64,000 nucleotides of DNA from Bacteroidota bacterium. Lineage in GTDB: Bacteria; Bacteroidota; Bacteroidia; Bacteroidales; Prolixibacteraceae. The stretch is from positions 1-64,000 of the forward strand of contig JAJUGZ010000009.1 of NCBI GenBank assembly GCA_029265715.1. The letters run 5' to 3'. The notes below the pieces were generated by a model. It saw only the letters and a list, made by a program, of their open reading frames with translations. It ran no database searches and was not told the DNA's origin. Positions 34,358-52,918 of this stretch are shown one piece after another; positions within the stretch are counted from its first letter, which is position 1, and each line of letters opens with the position of its first letter. Both the position numbers and the translations under genes were made by a program.

Positions 34358-34459
34358 ATTTTGTATTTATTACAAAAAGCATTTGCAGATAATGTTTGAT
34401 TATTTATTTTTAATGCACAGATCCAATTAGTCGCCAGGCGTACATAATTGAAGGTTACA

Positions 34460-35096: not shown

Positions 35097-36083
35097 ATGA
35101 ATGCACCTGACGAAAAATGGAATAATTTCATTGCTAACCTTTACAATTCAGAGAAGGATACTCCTGAACCGGATTCGTCTGATGCAGAAATCGGTGAATT
35201 TGATAAAAAGCAAATAAAAAAGATTTTTGACGCGCTGCCTTTTGCTTTTGTCCTCGGCAAAGCCAACAAGAGTAAATCATGGGCTTACATTCATCTGCAA
35301 ATTTCAAAAAATACCAATAAGTATGTTTTATCTTTTCTGAAATATGCGGCAATAGTGGTTGTTGCTATACTGGTTGGCGGAATTGGAAGTACATTGCTTT
35401 TTACCGAAGATGAAAACATGGTGTATGCCGAAGTATCGGTTCCGTATGGACAAATGTCGCAGGTGACCCTTTTTGACGGGACAAAAGTATGGTTAAACTC
35501 CGGATCGGTAATCCGGTATCCCAACCAATTCAACAAAAATCAGCGAAACGTATATTTAGATGGCGAGGCGTTTTTCGAGGTTACGAAAAATCCACATCAG
35601 CCCTTTAAAGTACATGCAAAAAACATGGAAGTTGAAGTGCTGGGAACTTCGTTTAATGTGTCGGCTTATAAAAACGAAAGCGAAACAACGGTTACCCTGG
35701 TTGAAGGGAGCGTGTACATAAATAATGAATCAGGGGAAAAAATCGGAGAACTTGTTCCCGGACAAATGGCATTAATGAAAGAGGGGGCGGATCATATTGC
35801 GTATCACCATGTTGATACGGATTTTTATGCCGGTTGGATTGAAGGAAAGATTGTTTTTAATGATGTTCGTTTAGATGAACTGGCGCCACGGCTTGAACGG
35901 TGGTATAATGTAGAGATCAGCTTTGAAAAGGAAAATTTAAAATCGATGAAATTTTCAGGCACTCTTTTGAAGAATAAGCCGATCGATCAGATATTGGCGG
36001 CGTTGGAATTATTGGCGCCCATCAAATTTCAACATACTGTTATTGTCAATCAACGAGATAAAATACAGGTTAAATCAAAATAA
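35097..36083 (+). CDS. FecR-family anti-sigma factor
   Basis: Inner-membrane regulator that binds the ECF sigma factor and responds to the SusC-like receptor. The first 80 residues are cytoplasmic, a single membrane segment lies around 82-103 (YAAIVVVAILVGGIGSTLLF), and the periplasmic FecR domain follows (VPYGQMSQVTLFDGTKVWLN, then VLGTSFNVSAY). The C-terminal DUF4974 domain, resembling an STN fold, spans about 250-328 (GKIVFNDVRLDELAPRLERW). Length 328 residues is normal. 58 nt after the sigma gene, 122 nt before SusC. Confidence 0.93.
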   Translation: MNAPDEKWNNFIANLYNSEKDTPEPDSSDAEIGEFDKKQIKKIFDALPFAFVLGKANKSKSWAYIHLQISKNTNKYVLSFLKYAAIVVVAILVGGIGSTLLFTEDENMVYAEVSVPYGQMSQVTLFDGTKVWLNSGSVIRYPNQFNKNQRNVYLDGEAFFEVTKNPHQPFKVHAKNMEVEVLGTSFNVSAYKNESETTVTLVEGSVYINNESGEKIGELVPGQMALMKEGADHIAYHHVDTDFYAGWIEGKIVFNDVRLDELAPRLERWYNVEISFEKENLKSMKFSGTLLKNKPIDQILAALELLAPIKFQHTVIVNQRDKIQVKSK

Positions 36084-36205
36084 AAACAGTTCTGCCTATG
36101 GTATATTATTCTTATGAATAAAAAATGGCAGTGAAATGTTGCGACCATTCACACTGCCAGATACTTAAACAAACAAAGAGTGTTTATTTAAAAACAACCA
36201 AACTT

Positions 36206-39200: not shown

Positions 39201-39661
39201 TGGGCTATAAAGGGTTCGATTTCAGTGTGACTACCACTGGCGCTTTTGGCCAGCAGATCGCTAAATCATATCGTTCGTTTGCCGACACGAAAGTTCAAAA
39301 CTATACGACAGATATTTTCGGACGCTGGCACGGCGAAGGAACTTCGAACAAATTGCCCCGCCTGACGTCAGGGAGTAACACCAACTGGCAGGAAATCTCG
39401 GATATCTATATTGAAGATGGCGACTATGTAAAAATTCAGAACGTCACATTGGGATACGACTTTAAGAAGTTATTCTCAAAAATACCGTTTGGCCAGGCCC
39501 GTTTGTACCTGACTGCCCAAAACTTATACACCTTTACCGGTTATTCGGGGATGGACCCTGAAATTGGCTATGGCTACGGCGAAAGCTGGGTTTCGGGCAT
39601 TGACTTAGGTTTTTATCCAAGTCCAAGAACTTATCTGATTGGTATTAATCTCAAATTTTAA
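36206..39661 (+). CDS. SusC/RagA-type TonB-dependent transporter with STN signalling domain
   Basis: Outer-membrane TonB-dependent importer, 1151 residues from the ATG at 36206 (an ATG 27 codons upstream adds a non-conserved segment). After the signal region (around MKLTTLLIIGCFISVSA) an STN domain (about 50-120) can signal to FecR. A carboxypeptidase-like domain follows (GKVTGSQGEALPGVTVFVKG), then a TonB-box-like EEVVAIGYGVQKKK, the plug (TVRGLGTVGSSSPLYVIDGV) and a large barrel ending in the hydrophobic LIGINLKF. Typical SusC features. With SusD 6 nt downstream it should form a pedal-bin complex. The substrate is unknown; no glycoside hydrolase is nearby. Confidence 0.96.
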   Translation: MKKQWIFHDQPWSWTKLFRIMKLTTLLIIGCFISVSAATYSQNTKLNLSVKNSTLVDVFKEIENQSEFYFYYKNEDVAQKNSVSVNLKNARIDEIMSDILQNTGLEYKILDRYIVVKKANASFSEIFSQQAKSIRGKVTGSQGEALPGVTVFVKGTSNGTITNADGTYALSNVPADATIVFSFVGMETKEVQVDGKEVINVELREETIGIEEVVAIGYGVQKKKLTTGATIQVNGEDLQKLSTVSPLSALQSQTPGVNITQSSGMPGEGFKVTVRGLGTVGSSSPLYVIDGVAGGDINALNPSDIESVDVLKDAASAAIYGARAANGVILVTTKQGKSGKMQVTYDGYYGIQNPYKVPPLLNAKEYMTILDEINFNEGLDPYDWATMIPGLYSKVQNGWKGTNWLDEIRNKNAATQNHAINMLGGSDASKFSIGFSYADQEGIYGSPVEPNYKRYTARINSDHVILKNNGLDIIKLGENLNFNYSEKKGIGIGNIYWNDIHNMLVGCPLMPVYNESGEYWDKNDNTSSGLSQLSPSMANPIASMVYSRGQNLSKNYALNSNVYLEIQPVKGLIMKSSFGYRMSASSYRSYTPTYELSESTINTIDKVNQSLSSGHNWTWENTIAYSFNKGQHSFNALIGQSLEKWGMGESLNVTNGYSLFDDFAHAWIDNTQNLTSGVTTLYGSPWGEGGIASFFSRVNYDYKETYMLSAVMRADGSSNFARGHRWGYFPSISAGWVISNESFMQSSRNWINFLKIRGSWGQNGNASISNFQYLATVSFDETAAYSFGNVKDSQSTGAYADILPNKDITWETSEQLDLGFDSRFLDSRLGLSFDWYKKTTKDWLVVAPTLASYGTDAPYINGGDVENKGFEIALNWNDKVGEFTYGATLNLAANKNKVTRIANGEGIIHGQTNVLSQGTTEMYRAEVGKPIGYFWGYKTAGVFQNAEQIQSTEAILQSNPQPGDLIFVDTSGDGRITEDDKCEIGNPHPDMTMGLSFNLGYKGFDFSVTTTGAFGQQIAKSYRSFADTKVQNYTTDIFGRWHGEGTSNKLPRLTSGSNTNWQEISDIYIEDGDYVKIQNVTLGYDFKKLFSKIPFGQARLYLTAQNLYTFTGYSGMDPEIGYGYGESWVSGIDLGFYPSPRTYLIGINLKF

Positions 39662-39667
39662 TTCAGT

Positions 39668-41377
39668 ATGAAGAAGATAATATATATATATGTTGCCGCA
39701 GCATCGCTGTTGTTAATGAGCTGTGAGGATTTCCTCGATACGAGCAACTACACGAAAAAGGACACTTCAAACTTTCCGGAAACGGTTGAAGATGCAGAAC
39801 AAATGCTGACTGGTATTTATTCAAACCTGAATTACAGTACGGCAAGCCCTCAAACCTCGTATTTCTATGCGGCCGAACTTGCTTCTGACGATCGCTTTGG
39901 CGGAGGTGGCGAAAATGATAAACTGATGCAGGCGCTGGATTTGCTGATGAACTACCAATCAAACATGCTGGAAGAATTCTGGAAGGTCCGCTATAAAGGT
40001 ATCTTTCGTGCTAACATGGCTCTCGAAACGCTCGATAACTGTTCTGGATATGAAAGTGATGAGCAGAAAAACCAGATGAAAGGGGAAGCCTATTTTATGC
40101 GTGCTTTCTTCTATTTTGAAATGGCATCGTTTTATGGCCAGGTTCCGCTTGTGGTAACGACTGATCCGGTTAACCTCCCGAAAGCAGAACCGGACGAATT
40201 ATACGGGCAAATTGCTTCCGACTTGAAAAATGCCATCTCATTGATGGCGTCAAAACCCTATACCTATGTTGAGTCCGGACATGCAACCAAATGGGCAGCA
40301 GAAGCGTTGATGGCCCGCGTGTTCTTGTTCTACACCGGGTTCTATTCAAAATCGGAACTTCCGTTAGCCGAAGGCGGTTCGGTTTCCAAAACAGAAGTTG
40401 TGGCCTGGCTCGAAGACTGTATTAAAAACAGCGGGCACGAACTGGTTGCCGATTTCCGTAATCTTTGGGCATACACCAACAAGTATACTGTAGAGGACTA
40501 TGCTTACACAAAAGGAAAAGGGTTGAAATGGGTTGAAGACGATGGCGGGGTGAACCCGGAAACATTGTTCTCAATTAAGTATTCTAATTTCCCAAGCTGG
40601 AGCACCACAATTGGTTATTCAAACCAGTACGTGCTTCATTTTGGGTTGCGAGGTGGTCAGGCTTATGCTAATACCTTCCCCTTTGGTCAGGGCTGGGGAG
40701 CTGGTCCAGTTAACCCCACACTCTGGACCGACTGGAAAGCTGCCGAACCAAACGATATGCGCCGTCAGGCTTCCATTATCGATTTGCCAAACGATTTGCC
40801 CGGATATGCCAAAGGCGGCTGGGTCGACTTTGTTCAGGAAACTGACTTCTGGCAGAAAAAATACAGCCCGGTTACCTCTAAAAATGCCGATGGTACTTAC
40901 AATTCGTCATATAGTGTAGCGATGTATGGAACTGCTGAAAACTTCCAGCTCGACAATACACAGGATTTGGTCTTGATCCGCCTGGCCGATGTTTACCTGA
41001 TGCATTCGGAATTGACCGAAACAAACACTTATCTGAATAAAGTTCGTAAAAGAGCCGGATTGCCCGATGAAGCTTATTCGCTGGAAAATATCCAGAAAGA
41101 ACGCCGCTGGGAGCTTGCCTTTGAAGGTGTGCGTTGGAATGATATCCGTCGCTGGGGCATTGCAGGCGATGTGCTTGAAAAACAAATTGGACAACCTTGT
41201 TATTTTAAAGGGGTTGCCGGGGTAACCAAGTCGTTTGGCGGAGGTTATAAAGCCCGCTACAATGCAACGAAGGGGTTCTTCCCAATTCCGGAGAACCAGA
41301 TATCTCTCTCGGAAGGCGTTTTAAAACAAAACGCGGGATGGGGCACCAACGATGCTGAATATTCCGGCTGGAAATAG
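39668..41377 (+). CDS. SusD/RagB-family surface lipoprotein
   Basis: Substrate-binding lid of the SusCD importer, 569 residues. The signal peptide ends in LLLMSC (Cys19) and is followed by an acidic residue run typical of surface-exposed lipoproteins in this phylum (EDFLDT). The TPR-rich SusD fold is indicated by RANMALETLDNC, AYFMRAFFYFEMASFYG and, near the C-terminus, the family motif ENIQKERRWELAFEGVRWND and RRWG, with FFPIPENQI at the end. Starts 6 nt after susC. No ligand can be deduced. Confidence 0.95.
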   Translation: MKKIIYIYVAAASLLLMSCEDFLDTSNYTKKDTSNFPETVEDAEQMLTGIYSNLNYSTASPQTSYFYAAELASDDRFGGGGENDKLMQALDLLMNYQSNMLEEFWKVRYKGIFRANMALETLDNCSGYESDEQKNQMKGEAYFMRAFFYFEMASFYGQVPLVVTTDPVNLPKAEPDELYGQIASDLKNAISLMASKPYTYVESGHATKWAAEALMARVFLFYTGFYSKSELPLAEGGSVSKTEVVAWLEDCIKNSGHELVADFRNLWAYTNKYTVEDYAYTKGKGLKWVEDDGGVNPETLFSIKYSNFPSWSTTIGYSNQYVLHFGLRGGQAYANTFPFGQGWGAGPVNPTLWTDWKAAEPNDMRRQASIIDLPNDLPGYAKGGWVDFVQETDFWQKKYSPVTSKNADGTYNSSYSVAMYGTAENFQLDNTQDLVLIRLADVYLMHSELTETNTYLNKVRKRAGLPDEAYSLENIQKERRWELAFEGVRWNDIRRWGIAGDVLEKQIGQPCYFKGVAGVTKSFGGGYKARYNATKGFFPIPENQISLSEGVLKQNAGWGTNDAEYSGWK

Positions 41378-41450: not shown

Positions 41451-41568
41451 CGGAAATGTACAAATGGCTATTCTTCGACAATTGCCGGATTGAGAAACGA
41501 TTTCTGAAAAACAGAATTTGATACGAAAATTGCACAAAACAACTTTGAAAATTTATACAGATGAAAAA
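41451..41568 (+). repeat. Interspersed ~100-bp repeat, copy C, supplying a start codon
   Basis: Runs from CGGAAATGTACAAATGGCTA to TTATACAGATGAAAAAAACG and is homologous to copies A and B near 10.7-10.9 kb, 30 kb away. The upstream flank (GCCCATACAACCCG) is also similar to that of copy B (GCTCATACAAACCG). The ATG of the lipoprotein gene at 41561 is inside the repeat's conserved end. Confidence 0.7.
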
Positions 41569-42415
41569 AACGATTATATATGCGTTATTCATATTAGCAG
41601 TAAGCATTGTTGCCTGCGATCCGATTGAAGAAAGAGATTCTATTGGAGGGGCAATCGCTGCTGATCAGCTGGATATTGCTGCAACCCCAATCAAGGTGAA
41701 CGGAAAGAACGGGAATATGATTATTCTCGAGAACCACAGTCCGGTTATGTCTGCCTGGGTTTGTGGTTCGGCAACATCAAACAGTGCTTACGACACGGTG
41801 ATGGTGGTTTCTACCGGCTCTGTCCCGGTAACATTTACCGGACTAAATCCGAATGGTACAAAGATCACCAAAACACTCAGCATCACGGTCGATACTTTGT
41901 CTACCTTGCCAGAGCAATACAAGTATTTGTTCGGAGACCCAACGCAGGGCGTTACCTCCAAAAAATATGTTTGGGACGAAACGGCCGGAGCTGTTTGGGG
42001 AAATGGCGGTTATTTGGGCAATACTTCGCCCGGATGGTGGACCAACGATAAAGCTTCAATGAACTCGAATGATCCGGACTATGGATCGGACGGATACATG
42101 ATTTTTGACTTGAACGGATTGAAACTGACAAAATCGTCGGCTGATGGTTCGAAAACCGTGACCGGCAAAGTTGCGCTGGATTTATCGTATAAAAAACTGG
42201 ACGGGAACGGAGCCGTTTGGTCGAGCGCTAAACTGAAAACCACCAATGTTACCGTACTTTGCGGACGGCAGCCCAACAACGGTAACGCCCCGGTTTATGA
42301 TTATCATATCCTGAAGTTGAACGATTCAAAACTGGTATTGGCTTTCCCCGAAGGCGGAGACGATGCCGGAGCATGGAGCACTGCCTGGTTCTGGATGTTT
42401 CGAAAGGCAAATTAA
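41561..42415 (+). CDS. SusCD-associated lipoprotein of unknown fold
   Basis: A 284-residue lipoprotein with lipobox SIVAC (Cys19) followed by an acidic stretch, the third gene of the SusCD locus, in the position of SusE/SusF-type surface glycan-binding proteins. The first 100 residues look like an immunoglobulin-type beta domain (VPVTFTGLNPNGTKITKT); the second part has many aromatics (KYVWDETAGAVWGNGG, GAWSTAWFWMFRKAN), as is common in ligand-binding modules. I do not recognise a named family. Its start codon lies at the end of an interspersed repeat, 183 nt after susD, and it ends at a strong terminator. Confidence 0.7.
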   Translation: MKKTIIYALFILAVSIVACDPIEERDSIGGAIAADQLDIAATPIKVNGKNGNMIILENHSPVMSAWVCGSATSNSAYDTVMVVSTGSVPVTFTGLNPNGTKITKTLSITVDTLSTLPEQYKYLFGDPTQGVTSKKYVWDETAGAVWGNGGYLGNTSPGWWTNDKASMNSNDPDYGSDGYMIFDLNGLKLTKSSADGSKTVTGKVALDLSYKKLDGNGAVWSSAKLKTTNVTVLCGRQPNNGNAPVYDYHILKLNDSKLVLAFPEGGDDAGAWSTAWFWMFRKAN

Positions 42416-42436
42416 TTAGCAGTTAAGTCTCGGTTG

Positions 42437-42470
42437 AGAGGGCGGATGTTGCTTGATCCGCCCTCTTGTT
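42437..42470 (+). terminator. Terminator of the SusCD operon
   Basis: AGAGGGCGGAT (42437-42447) pairs perfectly with ATCCGCCCTCT (42456-42466), an 11-bp stem with an 8-nt loop, followed by TGTTTC. It separates the SusCD operon from the DUF4369/three-module block. Confidence 0.75.
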
Positions 42471-42568: not shown

Positions 42569-43168
42569 ATGAAGAAGCTTATATTTTTTCTGTTAGTTGT
42601 GTTGGCCGGGGCATGTCGGAACACTGACAACCGGTTTGTTGTTAACGGGTTTCTTTCGGATAAATCGTTCGATGGGGAAATGATTTACCTGGTGCCTTTG
42701 ATTAATTCAAGTAAAGACCGCGTTGATTCAACGGTAATCGCCGATGGACAATTTAAGTTCGATGTGGCAGTCGATTCGACCGAGATCTGTATTATCCGAG
42801 CCAAACCCGTCTTGCGTTTTTTCTTGCAGGAATTGCTGGTTGTAAAGGAACCGGGCGCAATAACGGTGAAGATTGGGCCGAACAGCGTGGCCAAAGGAAC
42901 CGCACAGAACGATTCGCTTCAGCATTGGAAAGAAAATAAGATCTTGTTTGACAGTCTTCTTTATACCCGTAGAAAACAATACCTTGAAGCCGACGGACAA
43001 TCGAAATTGTTGTTAAAACATCAGGTCGATTCATTAGCCCGGCTTTTTACCGAAATGAATTTTCAGACAGCATTAAACAACAAAAACAATGTGGTGGGGA
43101 AGCTGGTCGGGCAAATGATGTCGCCTTTGTTTTCTGAAGAGCAAAAGAAAAAATTGAATAATAAGTAG
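42569..43168 (+). CDS. DUF4369-like lipoprotein
   Basis: A 199-residue lipoprotein; the signal MKKLIFFLLVVLAGAC ends in Cys16. The mature N-terminus (FVVNGFLSDKSFDGEMIYLV, then VIADGQFKFDVAV) has the beta pattern of DUF4369, a domain often attached to thioredoxin-like proteins in Bacteroidota. The thioredoxin domain itself is missing; the rest is a charged helix (to about residue 199). Start at ATG 42569 rather than TTG two codons earlier. First gene of the block leading into the three membrane-protein/propeller modules, 19 nt before the first of them. Confidence 0.7.
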   Translation: MKKLIFFLLVVLAGACRNTDNRFVVNGFLSDKSFDGEMIYLVPLINSSKDRVDSTVIADGQFKFDVAVDSTEICIIRAKPVLRFFLQELLVVKEPGAITVKIGPNSVAKGTAQNDSLQHWKENKILFDSLLYTRRKQYLEADGQSKLLLKHQVDSLARLFTEMNFQTALNNKNNVVGKLVGQMMSPLFSEEQKKKLNNK

Positions 43169-43187
43169 TACTTTTTAACGCGAAAGG

Positions 43188-44924
43188 ATGCCTGCATACA
43201 AGAACAGATGGATCGCGGTTACGGGGATTGGGCTGGCTTTGTCAAGTTTTCTTTTTTTCTTTCTGGCCTATCCATACCATCTTTTTTTTAAAGAACAGGT
43301 GCAATTGTTCCTTTATACCTCCGGATATTTTCTTTCATATTTTAGTAAACCGGGCTGGCTTGCTGCGTATATAGGCGATTTCCTTACTCAATTTTTCTAT
43401 TTGAAAGGTGGAGGCCCGCTTGTTCTATCCTTTTTATTGACACTCGAATGGATTTCGGTTGCTGTTATTTTCAAGAAAATATTGAAGTTGTCGTCGGCCT
43501 GGGTTTGGGCATTGTTTCCGGTTGGCACCGATTGGGTCCTGCACCTGAGCTTGCTTCATGACCTGTCGGTTTCGGCAGGACTACTTCTTGTTCTGGGCCT
43601 TGGCGTCGGATCGATTTCTGTAAAGAACCGCATTCTTTCATTTGTTTTCGCGACTCTGATTAGTTTTACCTGTTATTGGCTGGTGGGAAGCGCCGCTTTC
43701 GTTTTTCCGGCGTTGGTCATCATTAACGATATCTCAGATAAAAAATATTCGTTCATCAAATGGGGTTTAATTGCGTCGTTGGTTTTTGCTGCCCCCATTG
43801 TGCTCCGGAAGTATTATTTGCTGTCGACCGGGCAAGCATTCATCTATCCGGCTGTCGAACCGCAAAGTATATTGCTCCCGGCCGTTTGGGTTGTTACATT
43901 ACTGGCGGCATTAATTTTAAAACCGTTTTTCAATAAGTTCCCTAAGTTGTCAGGTTGGTTTTTGCCGACAGCGTTTATATTTTTTATGGGTCTAGGTATA
44001 CGGTTAAATGCCGGGTTCGATCAGGAAAAAATACTGGCGTTGGACAGTGAAACCTATTTTGGAAATCCCGATAAGGTGCTGGACCTTGCTCAAAGATACA
44101 ATCTCAAGAACCGCTTTGCCTCGTATTTTACCAATATTGCGTTGGCCCGACAAGGTTTGTTGCCCGAGAAGCTTTTAGACTTTTACCAGCCCGGATTATA
44201 TGGTTTAATGTTGCCAGTTTCTCCGGAAGAGAGCTGGGAATCGATCCTTTTTAGCAACGAAGTGTATTTTCTGGTTGGAGATATGAACCTGGCACAACAT
44301 TCGGCTATGCTTGGAAATACATTCTCGCCCCATAATCGCAGTTCCCGGATGATCAGAAGGTTGGCCGAAATCAATTTAGTCAATGCTGATTCTGCTGCCG
44401 CCCGAAAATACCTGCGGATGCTGGATAAAACCTTGTTTCATAAAAAATGGGCTGAAAAATACCTCCGGATAAACCCACTTGATTCGTCGGTGGTCTGGCT
44501 GAATATGAAACGCGAACAGATTCCGGTGGGTGATACGATCTATTTCCCGAACGATTTTGAAACCTCGCTTCGCATCTTGGTCGGGCAAAACCCACGCAAC
44601 CGGGTTGCACTGGATTACTTATTGTGCTTTTACCTGTTAAATAAAGATCTCGATTCGTTTAAAAATTCGTTTGACCGGTACGGCGGGATTTACCGGCAGC
44701 ATGTGCCTAAAGTTTATGCCGAAGCTATGCTGGTAACGTTGTTTTCTCAAAATGCCGGTCCGGAAACAATCCGGTCTTATGGTATTCCGACAAATATTCA
44801 GGATGATTTTGCCAGCTATACAGAATTGGTTGCCCGGAAACCGGAAAATTTTTCGGCTCTGCCCGAACGGTTTGGAAAAACGTACTGGTTTTATTTTCAT
44901 TTTGCTAAAATCAGGGGAAAATGA
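43188..44924 (+). CDS. DUF6057-like polytopic membrane protein, module 1
   Basis: A 578-residue inner-membrane protein. About nine hydrophobic segments fill residues 5-275; the rest is a soluble, helical, TPR-like region. The N-terminal part carries YPYHLFFKEQVQLFL and YIGDFLTQFFY, and the C-terminus FGKTYWFYFHF; all three motifs recur in the paralogues at 46416 and 49645. From memory this matches the uncharacterised family DUF6057. No catalytic motif is visible. It overlaps the following propeller lipoprotein by four bases (ATGA), so the pair is translationally coupled. A scaffold or export role for its partner is only a guess. Confidence 0.8.
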   Translation: MPAYKNRWIAVTGIGLALSSFLFFFLAYPYHLFFKEQVQLFLYTSGYFLSYFSKPGWLAAYIGDFLTQFFYLKGGGPLVLSFLLTLEWISVAVIFKKILKLSSAWVWALFPVGTDWVLHLSLLHDLSVSAGLLLVLGLGVGSISVKNRILSFVFATLISFTCYWLVGSAAFVFPALVIINDISDKKYSFIKWGLIASLVFAAPIVLRKYYLLSTGQAFIYPAVEPQSILLPAVWVVTLLAALILKPFFNKFPKLSGWFLPTAFIFFMGLGIRLNAGFDQEKILALDSETYFGNPDKVLDLAQRYNLKNRFASYFTNIALARQGLLPEKLLDFYQPGLYGLMLPVSPEESWESILFSNEVYFLVGDMNLAQHSAMLGNTFSPHNRSSRMIRRLAEINLVNADSAAARKYLRMLDKTLFHKKWAEKYLRINPLDSSVVWLNMKREQIPVGDTIYFPNDFETSLRILVGQNPRNRVALDYLLCFYLLNKDLDSFKNSFDRYGGIYRQHVPKVYAEAMLVTLFSQNAGPETIRSYGIPTNIQDDFASYTELVARKPENFSALPERFGKTYWFYFHFAKIRGK

Positions 44925-46372
44925 ACGGAATCAAAATTCATATCGTGGCGGTGGTTTTCCTGTTTCTGGCGGCCTGCAGAGAGTCGGGGCAGGTACGGGT
45001 ACGGGATGGATACCCTTCAATTTATCCCGATTATCTGGATGTAACCATTCCGATGAATATTGCCCCGCTTAATTTCATGGTGCGCGATTCGGTAGAGCAG
45101 TTACGGGTCTGTATTAAAGGGGCGGACGATTCGATTGTGGTTGTTGGCGATTATAAAATTCAGATCCCGGAGAAACATTGGAAAGCGCTGTTGCATGCTG
45201 TTTCAGGCGGCGACCTGACGGTTGTTGTAACAGCTAAAATGTGTGGCGAATGGGTTCAATACAAGCCGTTTAACTGGCATGTGACGAACGATAAGATTGA
45301 TCCTTTCCTGAGTTATCGGTTGATTGAGCCGGGCTATGAAGTCTGGAACAAACTGCAGATTGTTGAACGAAACATCGAAACGTTTGCCGAACGCACATTG
45401 GCCGATAATAACCTCACAGATGGTTGTTGTATGAATTGTCATATTCATGGCAACCAGGATGGCGCTTTGTCGATGTTCCACCTGCGGGGAGGGAAGGGAG
45501 GAACCATCTTGAACCGGAACGGCAGGTTGCGCAAGATCAATACGAAAATTGACGGAATGATTTCGAACGCGGTTTATGGGAATTTCCATCCATCGGGTCG
45601 GTTTGGCGTTTTTTCGACCAATATCATCATTCCGGAATTACATGCTTATCGCAACAAACGGCTTGAGGTGTACGACACGGCTTCGGATTTGGTGGTGCTC
45701 GATTTTGACGAAAACCGGGCTATTTTGCAGCCATTGTTGTGTGATTCGACGACGCTGGAAACATTTCCTGTTTTTTCGGCTGACGGGAAGTGGATTTACT
45801 TCTGTTCAGCTCCGGCTGTTCCATTGCCTGACAGCATTAAGTCGTTGAAATATCATATTTGCCGGGTTGCCTTCGATGCGGATAAGAAAGAAATAGGAAC
45901 GACAGTCGATACGATTTGGAATGCCCTGGAAATGAACGGTTCGGCGTGTCATCTGAAAACATCTCCGGACGGAAAATTTTTACTGTACACGGTTGCTGAT
46001 TATGGAACTTTTCCAATCTGGCACCAGGAGGCCGATCTGCGACTGATGAACCTGGAAACCAGAACGATTGATAACCTCCCGATTGTCAACGGGCCCAACT
46101 CTGATTCGTATCATAGCTGGTCGTCAAATAGTCGCTGGTTTGTGTTTGCAAGTAAGCGGGATGACGGGATCTATGGCAAACCCTATTTTTGTTACATCGA
46201 CTCTTCGGGAAAGGCACATAAGCCTTTTGTGTTGCCGCAGCGCGATCCGGAGATGTATGATTTTATGCTGAAGTCGTTTAATATTCCCGAACTTTCGTCG
46301 GGGCCGGCGCCATTTGATGCCAGCGATGTTGAACGGATTTACAAGCAAAAAGAAGCCGAACCTTTTCGGTAA
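44921..46372 (+). CDS. CXXCH-containing PD40/TolB-like propeller lipoprotein, module 1
   Basis: A 483-residue lipoprotein (lipobox FLAAC, Cys19). An N-terminal domain with IPMNIAPLNFMV is followed by a haem-attachment type motif CMNCH (Cys170, Cys173, His174; DNA 45428-45442) and then a PD40/WD40-like beta propeller to the C-terminus (SADGKWIYFCSA, SPDGKFLLYTVADYG, SYHSWSSNSRWFVFASKR). His187, 13 residues after the haem-type His, is conserved in all three paralogues and could be the second haem ligand. If haem is bound, this would be an anchored monohaem cytochrome with a propeller; that needs proof. Partner gene overlaps by 4 bases. Confidence 0.82.
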   Translation: MNGIKIHIVAVVFLFLAACRESGQVRVRDGYPSIYPDYLDVTIPMNIAPLNFMVRDSVEQLRVCIKGADDSIVVVGDYKIQIPEKHWKALLHAVSGGDLTVVVTAKMCGEWVQYKPFNWHVTNDKIDPFLSYRLIEPGYEVWNKLQIVERNIETFAERTLADNNLTDGCCMNCHIHGNQDGALSMFHLRGGKGGTILNRNGRLRKINTKIDGMISNAVYGNFHPSGRFGVFSTNIIIPELHAYRNKRLEVYDTASDLVVLDFDENRAILQPLLCDSTTLETFPVFSADGKWIYFCSAPAVPLPDSIKSLKYHICRVAFDADKKEIGTTVDTIWNALEMNGSACHLKTSPDGKFLLYTVADYGTFPIWHQEADLRLMNLETRTIDNLPIVNGPNSDSYHSWSSNSRWFVFASKRDDGIYGKPYFCYIDSSGKAHKPFVLPQRDPEMYDFMLKSFNIPELSSGPAPFDASDVERIYKQKEAEPFR

Positions 46373-46415
46373 GAACGAACTTTAGTTGACCGAAATTTTT
46401 GAAAAACCTGTTCTT

Positions 46416-48179
46416 ATGAAGATATTTTCGATAGATAAAATGATGGCGGCGGTATTCGGGCTGATGGTTTTTGCCTTTTTTGCCTTTTTATACCCCTTTC
46501 ACTTAAATTATCAGGAACAATACCAGTTGTTTCTTTTTTCTGCCGATTACGTTTCCTCGTATTTCGTGAAGCCTGGAGGCCTCAGCGATTACCTGGGTAA
46601 TTTTCTGACCCAGTTTTATTTCTATTCGTGGGTTGGCGCTTTGTTGATTGCCGTCCTGCTTACCCTCTTGCAGGTTATGGTCTGGCAGGTTTCGCGCAAG
46701 CTGGGGGCCAAACCCGTTTTTTTGCCATTCACGTTTGTTCCGTCGGTTCTTTTCTGGAGCTTGTTATGCGACGAAAACTATCTGCTGGGCGGTGTTATTG
46801 CTATGCTGATCCTGGGCGTATTTATTTTGCTTTGCATACAGTTCAGAACGGGGTGGGAAAGAATGGTTTTTCTCCTGATCAGTTTGCCCGTTCTGTATTG
46901 GTTGATTGGTGGCGCTTTTGTATTGCTCGCACTTTTTGTAATTGGTTATGAATTAATTTTTCGACAACTGAAAACAGGTCAGTTGTTGACGCTGGGAGTT
47001 GCCGCACTTTTATTGGTGGTTGTTCTGCCCCTGCTGGCCAAACGGATCATTCAGCAATATCCGTTGTCTCGGTTGTGTATCGGTGTCAATTATTATCGGT
47101 TTCCTGTGAATGTACCGGTTGCAATCGGGATTATCGGGCTGTTGATTGCCAGTCTTCCCTATTTGCTTCGTTGGTTGTCGGCAAAATTACGATCGGGCAA
47201 AGCTGTATTCCTCATTGTTTTTCAACTGGCTGTTGTTGCTGGTGGTGGGCTGATGCTAATTAGAAACTCGGCAGATATGGCAAAAGAAGAGGTGATGGCC
47301 TACGATTTCAACGTCAGGATGCGCAAATGGGACCGGGTGATTGCGATGGCTGAAAAAAAGAAGCCATCTACTCCGCTTTCGGTTACCTGTTTAAACCTCG
47401 CACTGGCTAAAATGGATTTGCTGGGCGAGCGGATGTTTGCCTATTATCAGAACGGCGTAGGTGGTCTGATTCCCGATTTTGTACGCGATTATACCATCCC
47501 GATGATTGCCGGCGAAGTGTATTATCACCTGGGATTTGTCAATACGGCACAACGACTGGCTTTCGAGGCAATGGAAGCCTTGCCTGATTATCAGAAAAGC
47601 GCCCGTTCGGTGATGCGGTTGGCCGAGACGAATATTATTAACGGCGATTACGCTGTGGCAACTAAATATCTGCACCTGCTTCAACAAACTTTTTATTACC
47701 GGGAGTGGGCAACCAAAGCACTGCAAACAATCAACGATGAAAAGCTGATCGATCAGCATCCCGAGTGGGGCTGGCTTCGTAAGTGCCGGACCCGTGAAGA
47801 TTTCCTTTTCAGTGAGAAAGAAAAAGATATGATGCTGGGAATTCTTTTTCGCCAAAATCCGGAGAACCGGATGGCATTTGAATATCTCATGGCATATTGC
47901 CTGCTTTCGAAGGATTTACAACATTTTGTCGAGTATTTCCCTTTGGGAAAATCGCTCAATTACAAGGCTATCCCCAAAAGTTACCAGGAGGCTTTAATTT
48001 ATGTTTGGGGACTGACACATCCCGATCCAATCCAGACTATCCCTTATGCGATTGGCAATGGAGTGAAAAACCGTGTCCGGCAATATCAGCGAATCTATAC
48101 CGGTCAAATGAATGCCGAACCGGCCCTGCGCGATCAGTTTGCTGATACGTATTGGTATTATTTACATTTTAGAAATTGA
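46416..48179 (+). CDS. DUF6057-like polytopic membrane protein, module 2
   Basis: Paralogue of the protein at 43188, 587 residues from the ATG at 46416 (the reading frame also has a TTG ten codons earlier, less likely). It has the same plan: about nine to ten membrane segments in residues 1-290, then a soluble helical region. Shared motifs are YPFHLNYQEQYQLFLF, KPGGLSDYLGNFLTQFYF and the C-terminal FADTYWYYLHF. The middle of the soluble part has paired-helix repeats (AETNIINGDYAVATKYLHLL) like TPRs. Starts 44 nt after module 1 and 5 nt before its propeller partner. Confidence 0.8.
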   Translation: MKIFSIDKMMAAVFGLMVFAFFAFLYPFHLNYQEQYQLFLFSADYVSSYFVKPGGLSDYLGNFLTQFYFYSWVGALLIAVLLTLLQVMVWQVSRKLGAKPVFLPFTFVPSVLFWSLLCDENYLLGGVIAMLILGVFILLCIQFRTGWERMVFLLISLPVLYWLIGGAFVLLALFVIGYELIFRQLKTGQLLTLGVAALLLVVVLPLLAKRIIQQYPLSRLCIGVNYYRFPVNVPVAIGIIGLLIASLPYLLRWLSAKLRSGKAVFLIVFQLAVVAGGGLMLIRNSADMAKEEVMAYDFNVRMRKWDRVIAMAEKKKPSTPLSVTCLNLALAKMDLLGERMFAYYQNGVGGLIPDFVRDYTIPMIAGEVYYHLGFVNTAQRLAFEAMEALPDYQKSARSVMRLAETNIINGDYAVATKYLHLLQQTFYYREWATKALQTINDEKLIDQHPEWGWLRKCRTREDFLFSEKEKDMMLGILFRQNPENRMAFEYLMAYCLLSKDLQHFVEYFPLGKSLNYKAIPKSYQEALIYVWGLTHPDPIQTIPYAIGNGVKNRVRQYQRIYTGQMNAEPALRDQFADTYWYYLHFRN

Positions 48180-48184
48180 AAACG

Positions 48185-49648
48185 ATGAGGAAAGCAGTTT
48201 TATATCTTTTGTCGATTGCACTTCTTTCAATGGTAGCATGCAATGAAACGGTCGTTCCCAAAACGGTTAGAAAAGAAAAACCCGTTCTGTTTCCTGATTA
48301 TGTTGGCGTTACTGTTCCGGCAACCATTGCCCCTCTAAATTTTAAAGTTCAGGGAGAATATCAGGCCATAGATGCGCTGCTTGAAGGGAAAAACAATCAG
48401 ATTATACATGTTCAGGATAAGGATTTTGTACACATTGATCCGGTGAAATGGGCCCGGCTGCTCAATGAGTCGAAAGGAGACAGTCTCCGGATTACGGTGT
48501 CGGTTAAACAGGCAGACGGGTGGGTTCAGTTTGCTCCGTTTGCTGTTCATGTCAGCGATGTTCCGATTGATTACGGACTTGTTTATCGTCTGATTGCGCC
48601 CGGGTACGAAGTGTACAGCAAGATGGGGATTTACCAGCGGGACATGTCGTCGTTTACACAAACGCCCATACTCGAGAATACGCTGATCCCCGGGAGTTGC
48701 ATAAACTGCCATTCGTTTCGGCTGGCCAATCCGGACGATATGAGCCTGCACATTCGCGGGCAAAAGGGCGGAACAATCCTAAAAACGAGCGGAACCGTAA
48801 AACTGCTGAATACAAAAACCAAGCAGACCATTTCAAATTTTGTATATCCGTTCTGGCATCCCTCCGGGAAATATATGGCCTACTCGGTTAATAATACCCA
48901 TCAGGTTTTTCATGAAGCCAAAGGCGAACGGGTTGAAGTGGGTGATGCTGCTTCGGATGTGATTGTTTATGATATTGCGAAAAATGAAGCTATTGGGAGC
49001 CCCGTTTTGATGCAGGACAGCGTGTTTGAAACGTTACCGACTTTTTCGCCAGATGGTCGGTCGCTCTACTTTTGTGCCGCAAAAGCAAAAAAAATGCCGG
49101 TAGAGTACAAAGAGGTAAAGTACAATCTTTGTCGTGTTTTGTTTGATCCGGAAACCGGAACAATTGGCAACACAATCGATACCTTGTTTAATGCCACGGC
49201 TATCGGGAAAAGCGTGGCTTTCCCACGCCCATCGCCCGATGGAAAATATATCATGTTCACCCTGATCGATTATGGGAATTTTTCCATCTGGCATAAAGAG
49301 GCCGATTTGTATTTGCTCGATGTCCGGACTGGCGAATGCCGGCCGGTTTCAGAAGCGAACAGTGATCAGACCGAGAGCTATCATTCGTGGTCGTCGAATT
49401 CGCGTTGGTTTGTTTTTAGCAGCCGCCGTATCGATGGGTTATATACGCGTCCGTTTATTGCTTTTCTGGATGAAAACGGAAAAGCGGGGAAGCCATTCTT
49501 GCTGCCGCAAGCTGATCCTGATTATTATGAACGGTTGCTGTTTTCGTTCAATGTCCCCGAATTTGTCTCTGCTCCGGTCGATTTGAACACGTCGACTATC
49601 GAGCGCCTGATGGCCACCCCGGGCGAAAATGTCGGATTCAGAAAATGA
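48185..49648 (+). CDS. CXXCH-containing PD40/TolB-like propeller lipoprotein, module 2
   Basis: Paralogue of the protein at 44921, 487 residues from ATG 48185 (a TTG three codons earlier is unlikely). Lipobox SMVAC with Cys19. N-terminal motif VPATIAPLNFKV; haem-type motif CINCH at Cys172-His176 (DNA 48698-48712); conserved His189. The propeller blades include SPDGRSLYFCAA, SPDGKYIMFTLIDYG and SYHSWSSNSRWFVFSSRR, and WHKEADLYLLD between them. The start lies 5 nt after the stop of the partner membrane protein and the last bases overlap the start of module 3 (ATGA), so modules 2 and 3 are directly coupled. Confidence 0.82.
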   Translation: MRKAVLYLLSIALLSMVACNETVVPKTVRKEKPVLFPDYVGVTVPATIAPLNFKVQGEYQAIDALLEGKNNQIIHVQDKDFVHIDPVKWARLLNESKGDSLRITVSVKQADGWVQFAPFAVHVSDVPIDYGLVYRLIAPGYEVYSKMGIYQRDMSSFTQTPILENTLIPGSCINCHSFRLANPDDMSLHIRGQKGGTILKTSGTVKLLNTKTKQTISNFVYPFWHPSGKYMAYSVNNTHQVFHEAKGERVEVGDAASDVIVYDIAKNEAIGSPVLMQDSVFETLPTFSPDGRSLYFCAAKAKKMPVEYKEVKYNLCRVLFDPETGTIGNTIDTLFNATAIGKSVAFPRPSPDGKYIMFTLIDYGNFSIWHKEADLYLLDVRTGECRPVSEANSDQTESYHSWSSNSRWFVFSSRRIDGLYTRPFIAFLDENGKAGKPFLLPQADPDYYERLLFSFNVPEFVSAPVDLNTSTIERLMATPGENVGFRK

Positions 49649-51450
49649 GCTGGTCTATGGCTAAAACCCGGTCAAAAATACTGATTACGCTGACAGGCGT
49701 GTTGTTCTTTGTTATTTGCCTGTTGTTCTGGGGCGTATTTTACCCTGATCATTTGGTTCAGAAAGAACAGATGCAGATGTTTCTTTGGGGATTGGATTAT
49801 CTTCAGGAACACTTGGCGTTTCAGGGAGGATTTTCAATGTACCTGGGCGAGTTTTTAATCCAGTTTTTCTGTTTTCCATGGGTTGGGGCACTGGTAGTCG
49901 GCAGCATTTTATTCCTGCTTTATTTTTTGATGCAGTTTATACTGTCTAAACTTTTTCCCAATCGTTTTTATGTATTGTCGTTTTTGCCGGCAATTGGCTA
50001 TTGTTTTCTGTTATTTAACGATTACTACACGATTTCCGGAGCTTTGTCGGTGGCGCTTTCGTTGGCTGGCGTTGTTTGGTATATCCGGATTGAAAACACG
50101 AAAGCCCGGATCCTGGCCGGGTTTATCATGCTCATGGTTTTTTATTGGCTACTGGGCGGGGCATACCTGTTGTTTGTTTCTTCAGCGGCAGCCTCTGAAT
50201 TTGTCCGGGTTTTCCGTACCCCGGGGAAACGCACTTCGCAAGCGTATTGGGTAGTTTCCGGGTACTTGTTTTTCGGGGGGCTTATCCCGTTAATTGTTCA
50301 TCGTTTCCTGGTGGTCGACACGTTTTTGCAATGTTACTTTTCTCCGGCGTATTATCAGTTTCGGCTGGTATTCCCGGGATTCCTGGTTCTGATGTTTGTC
50401 GCTCCTGCAATGCTGATTTTTTTACAGTGGATAATAGATGGTTTATTATCAGAAAAGTCTGGCTGGACGCTCCAAGTGGGGCTGAGTATTTTGTTAATCG
50501 GGTTTTGCGGTTATGGTTTTTATTTTTTCCCGGACTGGCATGAAGAAACCGAGATGAAATACGACAACCTGGTTTATCGGAAAGACTGGAATGAAATTAT
50601 CAGGCAAGCCCGTCAAAATCAGCCTTCGGGACAAAAAAGCCGGGTTGCGCTCATGCTCGCGTTGGGTCAGACCGGGCAGTTGAGTTCGCAACTTTTTTTA
50701 TTCGACCCGAAGCCGTCTGATTTCTTTATTCCCTACGAGGTTCGGGGCATGGCGCCGATCATTGCGAACGAACCGTATTATTGGTTAGGGCTCATTAATT
50801 TTTCGCAGATGCTGGCAATGGAGTCAATCGAGTCGACGCCGGATGGAAGGATGCCGGTGCGCGCCGTAAAGCGGTATGCCGAAACCTGCATGATAACCGG
50901 GCAGTATCAGGTTGCCTCCAGGTTTTTGCGCCTTTTGCAAAAGACCCTTTTTTACCGGCACTGGGCAAATGCCGCGATGGAGTATTTAAATCAGGATGAC
51001 AAGGTGGATGCGCATCCGGAGTGGGGTGTTTTGAGAAGGCGACAGGTTAAAGACGATTTTTATTTTAAGTTCGACCAACGTGATCTGGCGCTGACCTGCC
51101 TGCTCCGGAGTGATCCGGCAAACCGTCTGGCTTTTGAGTACCGGGTGTCGTCGTCTTTGCTAAAAAAAGATCTGGACGAATTTCTGGAATTTTTGCCATT
51201 GGTCCGAAACATGGATTATCCTCAGTTTCCGTTGGTTTTTCAGGAAGCGCTGGCCTACATCGAAACGTTGCTGCCACAAATGCCTGCCGATCTGTTGCAG
51301 TATCCGGTCGACGATCAGGTTCATCAGCGTTTAACACGGTATGCCGGGCTTTTCAATCAGGGTGGAAACAAAGACGCCGGTTTGATGAAACCGGATTTTG
51401 GCAATACCTATTGGTATTACGTACATTTTTCGGGAAACGATGAGAAATAG
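49645..51450 (+). CDS. DUF6057-like polytopic membrane protein, module 3
   Basis: Third paralogue, 601 residues. About nine to ten membrane segments in the first 300 residues, then the helical region with RYAETCMITGQYQVASRFL resembling the module 2 repeat. Family motifs: YPDHLVQKEQMQMFLW, MYLGEFLIQFFCF and the C-terminal FGNTYWYYVHF. The N-terminus differs slightly (MSWSMAKTRSKILIT), with a second possible ATG at 49657. It overlaps the preceding lipoprotein gene by four bases and the following one by eleven bases, so translation is coupled on both sides. Confidence 0.8.
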   Translation: MSWSMAKTRSKILITLTGVLFFVICLLFWGVFYPDHLVQKEQMQMFLWGLDYLQEHLAFQGGFSMYLGEFLIQFFCFPWVGALVVGSILFLLYFLMQFILSKLFPNRFYVLSFLPAIGYCFLLFNDYYTISGALSVALSLAGVVWYIRIENTKARILAGFIMLMVFYWLLGGAYLLFVSSAAASEFVRVFRTPGKRTSQAYWVVSGYLFFGGLIPLIVHRFLVVDTFLQCYFSPAYYQFRLVFPGFLVLMFVAPAMLIFLQWIIDGLLSEKSGWTLQVGLSILLIGFCGYGFYFFPDWHEETEMKYDNLVYRKDWNEIIRQARQNQPSGQKSRVALMLALGQTGQLSSQLFLFDPKPSDFFIPYEVRGMAPIIANEPYYWLGLINFSQMLAMESIESTPDGRMPVRAVKRYAETCMITGQYQVASRFLRLLQKTLFYRHWANAAMEYLNQDDKVDAHPEWGVLRRRQVKDDFYFKFDQRDLALTCLLRSDPANRLAFEYRVSSSLLKKDLDEFLEFLPLVRNMDYPQFPLVFQEALAYIETLLPQMPADLLQYPVDDQVHQRLTRYAGLFNQGGNKDAGLMKPDFGNTYWYYVHFSGNDEK

Positions 51451-52918
51451 AATTTTTTTTGTGACAACTTTATTGGCATTGACGTTGGGTGGTTGTTTGC
51501 CAGAAAGGCCGCAGAATGCAGAAGAAACCGGTGTTTATCCGAAGGTTTTCCCGTCTGATTTTGGGGCCGCAGTTCCGGTTAACATCGCTCCTCTCAATTT
51601 TCGGGTCGATGAGGAATGCGACCGGGTTTTTCTTTCGGTACGTGGGAAAAATGAAAACCTTTTAGAATACAGTTTCGATGGGAACAGTGTGAAAATTCCG
51701 GTTGCAGATTGGTCGAAATTTCTGGACGAGAACAAAGGCGACAGCATTACACTGACAGTCTTTTTAAATCAGGATAAGCGATGGCTGAAGTATAAGGCGT
51801 TTAGCTATTTTGTGGCTCCGGATCCGATCGATCCTTTCTTGGTTTACCGGTTAATTTTTCCCGGATATCAAACCTGGAACATGATGGGAATTTATCAGCG
51901 TTGTTTGTCTGACTTTTCGGTTGATGTTGTTCTCGATAGCCGCCTGATGCCCTATACCTGTATGAATTGTCACGCGATGGCTGCCAACAATCCGGATAAC
52001 ATGTTGTTGCACTTGCGCGAGAATAATTCAGGAACGATCATTATCCAGGGAAAGAAAATTGAAAAGCTGAATACAAAAACACAAAATACCTTTTCGGCGG
52101 TAGGGTTTCCGTATTGGCATCCGTCGGCCAAATACATTGCATTCTCGATTGATAAGGTCAGACAATTGTTCCCGGCCTCGGGGCACGAGCGGGCACACGC
52201 TCTGGATATGGAGTCGGATATGGTTATTTATGATGTTGCAAAGAACGAGTTTATAACATCGCCCCTGATATTTTCGCCTGATGCGTTTGAAGCATTTCCC
52301 TGTTTTTCGCCCGATGGAACGACCTTGTACTTTGTAACTGCCAAAGCAACAGCAATGCCGAAGGAGCATCGGGATGTTCGCTACAGTTTGTGTGCTGTTG
52401 CGTTTGACGGTCGGACCGGGCAATTGGGGCAAACGGTCGATACGTTGATCTCGTCTGCGCGTTTTGGAAAGAGTGTGACAATGCCGCGGGTTTCTCCGGA
52501 TGGGAGGCATATTATGGTAACGGCAACCGATCATGGTAATTTTCCTGCCTATTACAAAGATGCCGACCTGTATCAGTACGATACCGAAGATTCTTCGCTG
52601 ATCCGGGTTGATATGCTTAACAGCGGCGATGTTGAGAGTTATCATTCGTGGTCGTCGAACGGCAGGTGGGTTGGGTTTGGCAGCCGTCGGATGGATGGGT
52701 TGTATATGAATGTTTATCTGGCTTATTGCGACAGGGATGGCGTGTTTCATAAGCCCTTCTTGTTGCCGCAGGAGGACCCCGATTTTTACCGGTCCTCGCT
52801 GTATTCGTTCAATATTCCGGAGTTTTCGGTTAAGCCGGTACAGGTGGGCCCGTACGACATTGAACGGGTTGCAAAAACATCAAAAGGTTCGCAGGTCCGG
52901 TTTGATACCACCCATTGA
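51440..52918 (+). CDS. CXXCH-containing PD40/TolB-like propeller lipoprotein, module 3
   Basis: Third propeller paralogue, 492 residues from ATG 51440; an in-frame ATG 14 codons upstream lies inside the previous gene and is rejected because it precedes the clear signal sequence MRNRIFFVTTLLALTLGGC (Cys19). N-terminal motif VPVNIAPLNFRV; haem-type motif CMNCH at Cys174-His178 (DNA 51959-51973); conserved His191. Propeller blades include SPDGTTLYFVTA, SPDGRHIMVTATDHG and SYHSWSSNGRWVGFGSRR. Overlaps the partner membrane gene by 11 bases. Last gene of the block; a bidirectional terminator follows. Confidence 0.82.
   Translation: MRNRIFFVTTLLALTLGGCLPERPQNAEETGVYPKVFPSDFGAAVPVNIAPLNFRVDEECDRVFLSVRGKNENLLEYSFDGNSVKIPVADWSKFLDENKGDSITLTVFLNQDKRWLKYKAFSYFVAPDPIDPFLVYRLIFPGYQTWNMMGIYQRCLSDFSVDVVLDSRLMPYTCMNCHAMAANNPDNMLLHLRENNSGTIIIQGKKIEKLNTKTQNTFSAVGFPYWHPSAKYIAFSIDKVRQLFPASGHERAHALDMESDMVIYDVAKNEFITSPLIFSPDAFEAFPCFSPDGTTLYFVTAKATAMPKEHRDVRYSLCAVAFDGRTGQLGQTVDTLISSARFGKSVTMPRVSPDGRHIMVTATDHGNFPAYYKDADLYQYDTEDSSLIRVDMLNSGDVESYHSWSSNGRWVGFGSRRMDGLYMNVYLAYCDRDGVFHKPFLLPQEDPDFYRSSLYSFNIPEFSVKPVQVGPYDIERVAKTSKGSQVRFDTTH

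Follow-up and report, generated by a model that had tools for sequence, protein, structure and literature searches.

Among membrane glycosyltransferases of the GT-C fold, ArnT-type enzymes act on lipid A, and TMEM260 carries a TPR domain. TMTC proteins combine a GT-C part with lumenal TPR and have the loop motif DD, and an acid pair is critical in known enzymes (D55/E56 in the ArnT structure 5ezm, D77/E78 in Pmt1), as described in part of one paper (PMC7801869); TMTC1-4 and TMEM260 act on particular proteins, in which they modify defined Ig-like folds, according to excerpts of another (PMC11292533). For Bacteroidota, sections of a 2025 review state that the transferase and the ligase of the O-glycosylation system remain undiscovered (PMC12871550). 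Here we analyse a window of 64,000 nucleotides (the whole stretch of DNA studied; assembly GCA_029265715.1, contig JAJUGZ010000009.1, positions 1 to 64,000) from a Bacteroidota bacterium of the Prolixibacteraceae, in which three tandem gene pairs, or modules, each encode a membrane protein of the family DUF6057 and a propeller lipoprotein with a CxNCH motif. As kinds of protein, GT-C enzymes and propeller lipoproteins are both familiar; the apparently new element is their pairing. Giving the idea slightly less than even weight, we propose that each pair is a dedicated GT-C glycosyltransferase/lipoprotein system, in which the lipoprotein would be the acceptor or an essential partner.

The window is contig C53 of its own genome (4.2 megabases, 200 contigs). 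The three pairs lie at 43188-52918, and inspection of the open reading frames (ORFs) found all genes intact. The frames overlap by four nucleotides (ATGA) at 44921 and at 49645, the copy 2 pair is separated by a gap of 5 nucleotides (48179/48185), and the copy 3 pair overlaps by 11 nucleotides at 51440. Each membrane protein has the motifs YPxHLxxxEQxQ(L/M)FL and F(G/A)xTYW(F/Y)YxHF, and each lipoprotein a lipobox cysteine, APLNF, CxNCH and YHSWSSN.RW. Identity to copy 1 is 28% (copy 2) and 26% (copy 3) for the membrane proteins, and 41% and 34% for the lipoproteins. Against PF19529 (DUF6057) the window copies score 466-635 bits, far over the Pfam gathering cut-off of 29.8. A first-pass annotation of the same DNA had reported the three same-order pairs with these overlaps and gap, the shared motifs, the likeness to DUF6057 and the PD40-type propellers, all of which the ORF coordinates and Pfam scores bear out. 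The features of the modules are as follows.

43188..44924, forward strand: DUF6057 membrane protein, copy 1 (PF19529 E 5e-148)
43293..43310, forward strand: EQVQLF, first periplasmic loop of copy 1, with the candidate catalytic-loop acid
44921..46372, forward strand: propeller lipoprotein, copy 1 (PF07676, PD40, E 1e-10)
45428..45442, forward strand: CMNCH motif of lipoprotein copy 1
46416..48179, forward strand: DUF6057 membrane protein, copy 2 (PF19529 E 2e-190; structure model)
46515..46532, forward strand: EQYQLF (E34-F39), first periplasmic loop of copy 2
48185..49648, forward strand: propeller lipoprotein, copy 2 (PD40 E 3e-16; structure model)
48698..48712, forward strand: CINCH motif of lipoprotein copy 2
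49645..51450, forward strand: DUF6057 membrane protein, copy 3 (PF19529 E 3e-139)
49765..49782, forward strand: EQMQMF, first periplasmic loop of copy 3
51440..52918, forward strand: propeller lipoprotein, copy 3 (PD40 E 3e-7)
51959..51973, forward strand: CMNCH motif of lipoprotein copy 3

The same genome has a fourth DUF6057-lipoprotein pair, on contig C40, adjoined by an rsmA/ksgA-like gene (judged by eye, without a search), and the same-genus genome G018 also carries the module (locus L069).

Pairing of the two families is widespread in Bacteroidales. DUF6057 was found in 25 of the 61 genomes of a set of relatives (own genome included), 24 of which exceed the family cut-off, and in 32 of 395 genomes across the phylum at E <= 0.001, with 6 exceeding it. 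A search based on the lipoprotein gave at least 518 stretches encoding a relative, and 80 loci of these were kept. In the lipoprotein-fetched loci, which are the fairer test of pairing, 109 of 119 lipoproteins have a same-strand DUF6057 gene at most 500 nucleotides away, and for 106 of the 109 the distance is at most 30 nucleotides. The 58 loci fetched by DUF6057, among them the window, contain 63 DUF6057 ORFs, of which 58 are paired and two lie at contig ends; the three unpaired are half of a broken gene, a shortened gene, and one whose lipoprotein lies 5.6 kilobases away on the opposite strand. Eleven loci of this set have the lipoprotein gene first, and since pairing survives reversal of the gene order, mere hitch-hiking is argued against. 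(An adjacency count had suggested 13 "lipoprotein-first" pairs; we discarded it, as these are mostly array lipoproteins matched to the DUF6057 of the next module.) The idea of the first-pass annotation that the two families form one module with conserved adjacency is thus upheld by the 109 paired lipoproteins, and partnerless paralogues, which it had named as the refuting case, do occur, yet only as a minority of 7 in 119. Weak DUF6057 matches of 17-22 bits, below the cut-off, were also seen (L089-L095, L097, L100-L102, L104, L106-L109); these are to a membrane family whose open frames span about 400-520 amino acids, in a single Bacteroidota family.

The two families also co-diversify. Patristic distances in the DUF6057 and lipoprotein trees correlate at r 0.796 over 147 non-redundant modules; a full shuffle of partners gives r of at most 0.10, and partner swaps inside the 27 multi-module loci give a mean of 0.37 and a maximum of 0.67, none of 999 matching the observed value. 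Host-genome ancestry adds to r, and the within-locus swap is the control for it; because this swap lowers r, co-variation is closest between true partners, even when the neighbouring modules serve as the comparison. To that extent the suggestion that the copies are variants with their own partners stands. The accompanying suggestion of a local triplication does not: for every one of the 27 multi-module loci, the sequence nearest to the first copy, and likewise to the second, comes from another locus. The DUF6057 copies of the window are 2.4-3.6 substitutions per site apart. For copies 1 and 2, close relatives occur in other genomes at distances of 0.5-1.3, and the smallest distances of copy 3 are to the first modules of L171 (1.4) and L140 (1.7). 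Judged by their sequences, the three pairs are an old set of deeply diverged ancient paralogues, with no fresh triplication. Pairwise comparison and trees, which had been put forward as checks, accordingly found diverged paralogues within co-diversifying families.

The membrane part of DUF6057 is a GT-C relative, by a homology that is remote and not overwhelming. In the structure model of copy 2 (predicted local distance difference test score, pLDDT, 95.7), residues 1-290 were aligned by VIA-align with fungal protein O-mannosyltransferases (PMTs), namely Pmt4 (Z 11.6, 267 residues, 5.3 Å), Pmt1-Pmt2 (Z 11.1, 261 residues, 5.7 Å) and another Pmt4 (Z 10.9, 270 residues, 5.6 Å), although in helical proteins a Z below about 13 may reflect a mere common arrangement. 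Residues from about 290 to 445 match TPR proteins at Z of about 10-12, and in the model the C-terminus is TPR-like. Foldseek alone gave no PDB match for the DUF6057 model at E <= 0.001. With no Foldseek match, and Z under the level just given for helical folds, independent profile evidence was sought.

For this comparison 73 DUF6057 proteins were aligned, comprising 70 of 71 non-redundant full-length proteins from the named loci (L137:5151-7055 was left out) and the three of the window; length limits of 540-660 amino acids for DUF6057 and 470-560 for the lipoprotein excluded fragments. The PMT_2 profile was built from 29 of 30 proteins of related genomes, those within the length limit (3 of the 30 loci lie under the Pfam cut-off), and GT87, with 3 proteins in 41 genomes, had too few for a profile. 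Profiles were used throughout since single-sequence hhalign is uninformative, single PMT_2 proteins scoring like unrelated membrane proteins (<= 1.5). The membrane part of DUF6057 matched PMT_2 with an hhalign probability of 91.8 globally (E 9e-8, 278 columns) and 74.5 locally, against control values (global/local) of 0.0/4.4 for Wzy, 0.3/0.3 for MFS and 0.1/2.5 for reversed DUF6057. Six half-sample repeats gave 36.7-74.1 globally and 5.8-23.8 locally against PMT_2, and at most 0.5 against MFS. As a positive control, PMT_2 matched a TMEM260-like profile at 97.5 and 94.0; reversed DUF6057 scored 2.8 against the latter. A search of solved structures with the DUF6057 profile listed six unrelated-looking chains at E 0.03-0.5, and PMTs were absent at E <= 1; such an absence from a sequence search does not exclude a relation to PMTs.

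The first periplasmic loop of DUF6057 reads EQxQLF...KPGG, and the acid at position 34 or 35 is present in 72 of the 73 proteins, as are F39 in 73, Q66 in 71 and G165 in 72. Mean column identity being 28%, retention of the acid suggests selection on it. By hhalign the KP(G) of DUF6057 coincides with the KP(P) of PMT_2. E34 and K52 are 18 residues apart, a spacing kept in 72 of 73 DUF6057, and 11 of 29 PMT_2 proteins (5 by pattern, 6 by eye) show it too, measured from the first acid to the residue just ahead of PP. In the hhalign alignment the DE of PMT_2 falls on F28-H29, which is six columns upstream of E34-Q35, and gaps occur from that point to KP(P/G); a direct placement of E34 on the catalytic acid of PMT_2 was therefore given up for a claim restricted to loop, conservation and spacing, and it is plausible but unsettled that E34 stands in register with that acid. 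A Prevotella-type subfamily has (H/Q/Y)D(R/H)SEF instead (11 of 73). Nine lipoproteins that have proline in place of H400 come, in our own comparison, from nine (H/Q)D-type first-module loci (L132, L136, L138, L143, L148, L158, L160, L161, L188), and the joint change of loop and H400 is another sign of paired change. At L143 another ORF lies between the DUF6057 and lipoprotein genes. Lysine and arginine make up 0.19-0.25 per residue of loops 92-101, 140-147, 179-189 and 253-264, versus 0.02-0.07 of loops 26-70, 117-125 and 211-235; these charges would fit a periplasmic TPR domain, only if the stretch 146-182 crosses the membrane twice.

The partner lipoprotein, as modelled for copy 2 (pLDDT 94.8), has a small, mostly-beta N-terminal domain followed by a propeller, counted as six-bladed from the model strands and similar to TolB (Z 26.8 over 277 residues); its profile likewise matches mainly propellers such as TolB among solved structures (best E 1.5e-4). 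In an alignment of 98 lipoproteins (95 from the loci and the three of the window), C19 of the lipobox, C172, N174, C175, H176 and R191 are identical throughout, and H189 (89), H225 (94), H370 (92) and H400 (89) are highly kept. All 98 thus carry CxNCH and fall within the CXXCH pattern of c-type cytochromes, and the motif is perhaps a c-type haem site; the invariant asparagine and the beta strand in which the modelled motif sits are unusual for haem c, and a metal site is equally open. The propeller domain of the hydrazine synthase alpha subunit (5c2v_A) is also similar (Z 23.6 over 287 residues). We rejected it as a link to haem: that enzyme carries its haems in the middle and C-terminal domains, according to portions of two papers (PMC12758564, PMC12607021), and the matched range, 54-431, is the N-terminal propeller, so that the match says nothing on haem in the lipoprotein. 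C(G/A)NCH is also present in five distant relatives from related genomes, four of which continue into a C-terminal TPR domain in the same chain. These PD40-propeller and TPR fusions, of 753-904 amino acids, lie at L284 4383-7094 (reverse strand), L285 3213-5507, L286 4498-6756 and L291 5215-7896; the L284 gene stands beside SusC- and SusD-like genes (by eye). Since propeller and TPR are fused in these relatives and split over the two proteins of the DUF6057 pair, they hint that TPR and propeller touch. The general Bacteroidota O-glycosylation motif has the form D(S/T)(A,I,L,M,V,T). Its apparent enrichment in the lipoproteins, 2.78 per protein versus 1.56 after shuffling, comes mostly from one position in 79 of 98 proteins and was rejected as evidence.

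Set beside the known systems, DUF6057 resembles the PMT_2/ArnT-type family (PF13231), with which its membrane part aligns start to start by profile and shares a first loop ending in KP(P/G); it differs in having EQ for DE, a TPR-like domain and a near-constant lipoprotein neighbour. With fungal PMTs it would share the fold of residues 1-290, as modelled, and it has a TPR-like domain where these have a MIR domain (described in part of PMC7759382). The arrangement of a GT-C-like N-terminus and a TPR-like C-terminus is that of TMTC1-4 and TMEM260, a likeness by description, profiles having been compared for the TMEM260-like family alone (with nil result); unlike these, each DUF6057 has its own gene neighbour. 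The lipoprotein shares the six-bladed propeller of TolB and adds a lipobox and CxNCH, its scores of 19-33 bits falling well short of the NCBIfam TolB cut-off of 343.

Upstream of the modules lies a SusCD unit, followed by two further lipoprotein genes, of which the one at 41561 is called DPIE here (a name coined for a family without one).

34448..35038, forward strand: extracytoplasmic function (ECF) sigma factor, head of the SusCD unit (Pfam Sigma70_r4_2 E 3e-17, Sigma70_r2 E 1e-9); cluster in 12/138 loci
35097..36083, forward strand: FecR-type anti-sigma factor (Pfam FecR E 3e-19, FecR_C E 2e-19); cluster in 16/138 loci
36125..39661, forward strand: SusC/RagA TonB-dependent outer-membrane transporter with STN domain (TIGR04056 909 bits, cut-off 368)
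39668..41377, forward strand: SusD-family lipoprotein (Pfam SusD-like_3 E 1e-30, SusD_RagB E 1e-26)
41561..42415, forward strand: DPIE lipoprotein; 39 members in 39/138 loci
42435..42468, forward strand: terminator-like hairpin of 13 pairs (pattern scan only)
42569..43168, forward strand: DUF4369 lipoprotein (Pfam E 4e-13); 23 members in 23/138 loci

The TIGR04056 and SusD_RagB matches identify the window locus as a SusCD locus, and the DUF4369 lipoprotein lies ahead of the modules as the first-pass annotation had it. DPIE has no Pfam match over cut-off, no NCBIfam match and no PDB sequence match. The listing of genomic neighbours that the annotation had proposed was carried out on 138 loci, duplicates included (tree and block counts use de-duplicated loci), with annotation of the clusters in 12 or more loci; these are SusC, SusD, DPIE, a chorismatase-like family, DUF4369, FecR and sigma, with no redox family among them. 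SusC recurs in 68 and SusD in 65 of the 138 loci (either strand), and DPIE precedes the module on its strand in all 39 of its loci, as does DUF4369 in 17 of its 23. Among blocks with at least 5 kilobases of upstream sequence, DPIE precedes 16 of the 19 tandem blocks and 6 of the 66 single ones, and none of the 4 lone lipoproteins (tandem versus single, Fisher p 7e-10, uncorrected for relatedness). The three tandem blocks kept as misses are L039, where a single DUF6057 gene is broken into two frames, together with L121 and L132, where an opposite-strand ORF ends the upstream walk before DPIE or susCD. Because tandem arrays track an upstream susC-susD-lipoprotein unit, SusCD is probably part of the system despite the hairpin. 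The order SusCD, DPIE lipoprotein, module is found again in other genera, so the terminator need not mark an unrelated unit, and the hairpin may serve internal regulation rather than mark a border; of the earlier claim that a terminator separates the modules from the SusCD locus, the hairpin is present, and setting SusCD apart is not supported, given the recurring gene order.

A relative of FkbO/Hyg5-like chorismatases was also seen near the module in 26 of 138 loci, in 17 of them downstream on the same strand (for example L069 14066-15289, L076 6032-7198 and L146 11453-12619). The protein scores 151 bits versus an NCBIfam cut-off of 325 and matches the FkbO structure 4bps at E 1e-21. By our own tally the gene occurs in 23 of 61 genomes, 18 of which also have DUF6057. 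In the genome of the window it lies on another contig (L292 6855-7976), and it is thus not needed for this module.

In the system that we propose, DUF6057 would be an inner-membrane glycosyltransferase of the GT-C fold that uses a lipid-phosphate-linked sugar donor, and the acid near the start of its first periplasmic loop would serve the active site. Its C-terminal TPR domain would lie in the periplasm and hold the adjacent propeller lipoprotein, which would be glycosylated en route to the outer membrane or else act as an essential partner of the enzyme. The pairs, anciently diverged, would each be partner-specific, and as many tandem arrays follow a SusCD locus, they probably make or tune surface lipoproteins acting with that transporter. 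The earlier thought that each module makes a membrane or envelope complex is, on the strength of adjacency and co-diversification, its likely meaning, with the TPR-propeller fusions of distant relatives as a further hint. In a fuller form, DUF6057 would be a periplasm-facing counterpart of TMTC/TMEM260 whose TPR domain selects its cognate CxNCH lipoprotein, the glycosylated and possibly haem-bearing lipoproteins then serving SusCD; this longer chain we regard as doubtful.

Besides the low Z scores, the missing Foldseek match and the offset acid pair given above, several results weigh against the glycosyltransferase proposal. The loop motif is EQ versus the DE or DD of known enzymes, and it varies, with (H/Q/Y)D in 11 of 73 and GQ in one. 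No GT-C model is among the 25 of 41 Pfam families listed for the 73 aligned members, nor is there a direct match to PMT_2 among these (for P0003, DUF6057 is the sole Pfam family at E <= 1), and Pfam TPR models match at most 2 of 73, weakly. DUF6057 against the TMEM260-like family (PF11028) gives 2.1 globally and 0.3 locally, and that family is not among the listed Pfam matches, so the link is to PMT_2 only. In the model helix 146-182 is continuous, which with simple alternation of the membrane helices would put the TPR domain in the cytoplasm. No acceptor residue was identified on the lipoprotein. Of the ten lipoproteins lacking a DUF6057 gene within 500 nucleotides, three are at contig ends and seven are unpaired (one has its partner at 542 nucleotides), and an extra one outside the 119 stands alone at L283 7725-9257; a lipoprotein can therefore exist without a nearby DUF6057. 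The L283 gene, for a lipoprotein with CINCH, closes a run of genes that includes one for a glycoside hydrolase family 30 protein, and the remaining genes of the run resemble sugar catabolism (by eye).

Three other explanations were weighed. DUF6057 might be related to GT-C enzymes yet inactive or repurposed, doing no more than dock its partner, for example as an inner-membrane tether or an export or sorting factor for a SusCD-associated surface lipoprotein. The TPR-like C-terminus, the fusions of CxNCH propeller and TPR, and the departure of EQ from DE/DD, with its unsettled register, would all suit such a role; the acid at 34/35, kept at a mean column identity of 28% as if under selection, and the equally retained F39, Q66 and G165 speak for more than docking, and we hold this unlikely. 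The pair might instead be a redox system, with the lipoprotein a monohaem c-type cytochrome or metalloenzyme, DUF6057 its anchor or its electron or cofactor partner, and the GT-C likeness mere ancestry. This would account for the invariant residues of CxNCH together with R191, for the several highly kept histidines and for the retention of C(G/A)NCH in distant relatives. ResB, a haem c assembly factor, was found in the genome of the window and in all 12 of the carrier genomes examined; since 54 of 61 relatives have it regardless of the module, it does not discriminate. A haem c motif usually lies in a turn, not in a beta strand as modelled here, none of the checked histidines outside the motif is invariant, and the neighbour clusters of 12 or more loci include no redox family; we hold a redox pair rather unlikely.

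Rather unlikely too, in our view, is that the enzyme acts on another acceptor (a lipid, a glycan, SusCD or the DPIE lipoprotein), leaving the propeller lipoprotein as an accessory such as a glycan sensor or carrier. ArnT-type relatives do act on lipid A, and tandem arrays go with SusCD-DPIE. Within five genes upstream of single modules, however, DPIE occurs in 6 of 66 and SusD in 7 of 66, so that in most single modules the pair must work without them.

In the open full-text literature we found no paper naming DUF6057, and in the open literature no description of DUF6057-lipoprotein pairing, co-diversification or SusCD linkage, and no paper on a CXXCH propeller lipoprotein in Bacteroides or on a c-type cytochrome with SusD. 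The first-pass annotation had known of no function for the membrane family, to which a remote, controlled link to GT-C enzymes is now added. If the glycosyltransferase proposal is true, the DUF6057 class might bear on the missing transferase of Bacteroidota O-glycosylation, although its patchy occurrence argues against its being the general O-glycosylation transferase. With at least 518 lipoprotein relatives, and most of the 119 paired, probably hundreds of genes are concerned; probably hundreds of Bacteroidales genes would then gain a testable activity, the layout of the gene pairs pointing to the likely acceptor, and a lineage-specific GT-C family with its own partners would be a useful entry point to Bacteroidota O-glycosylation.

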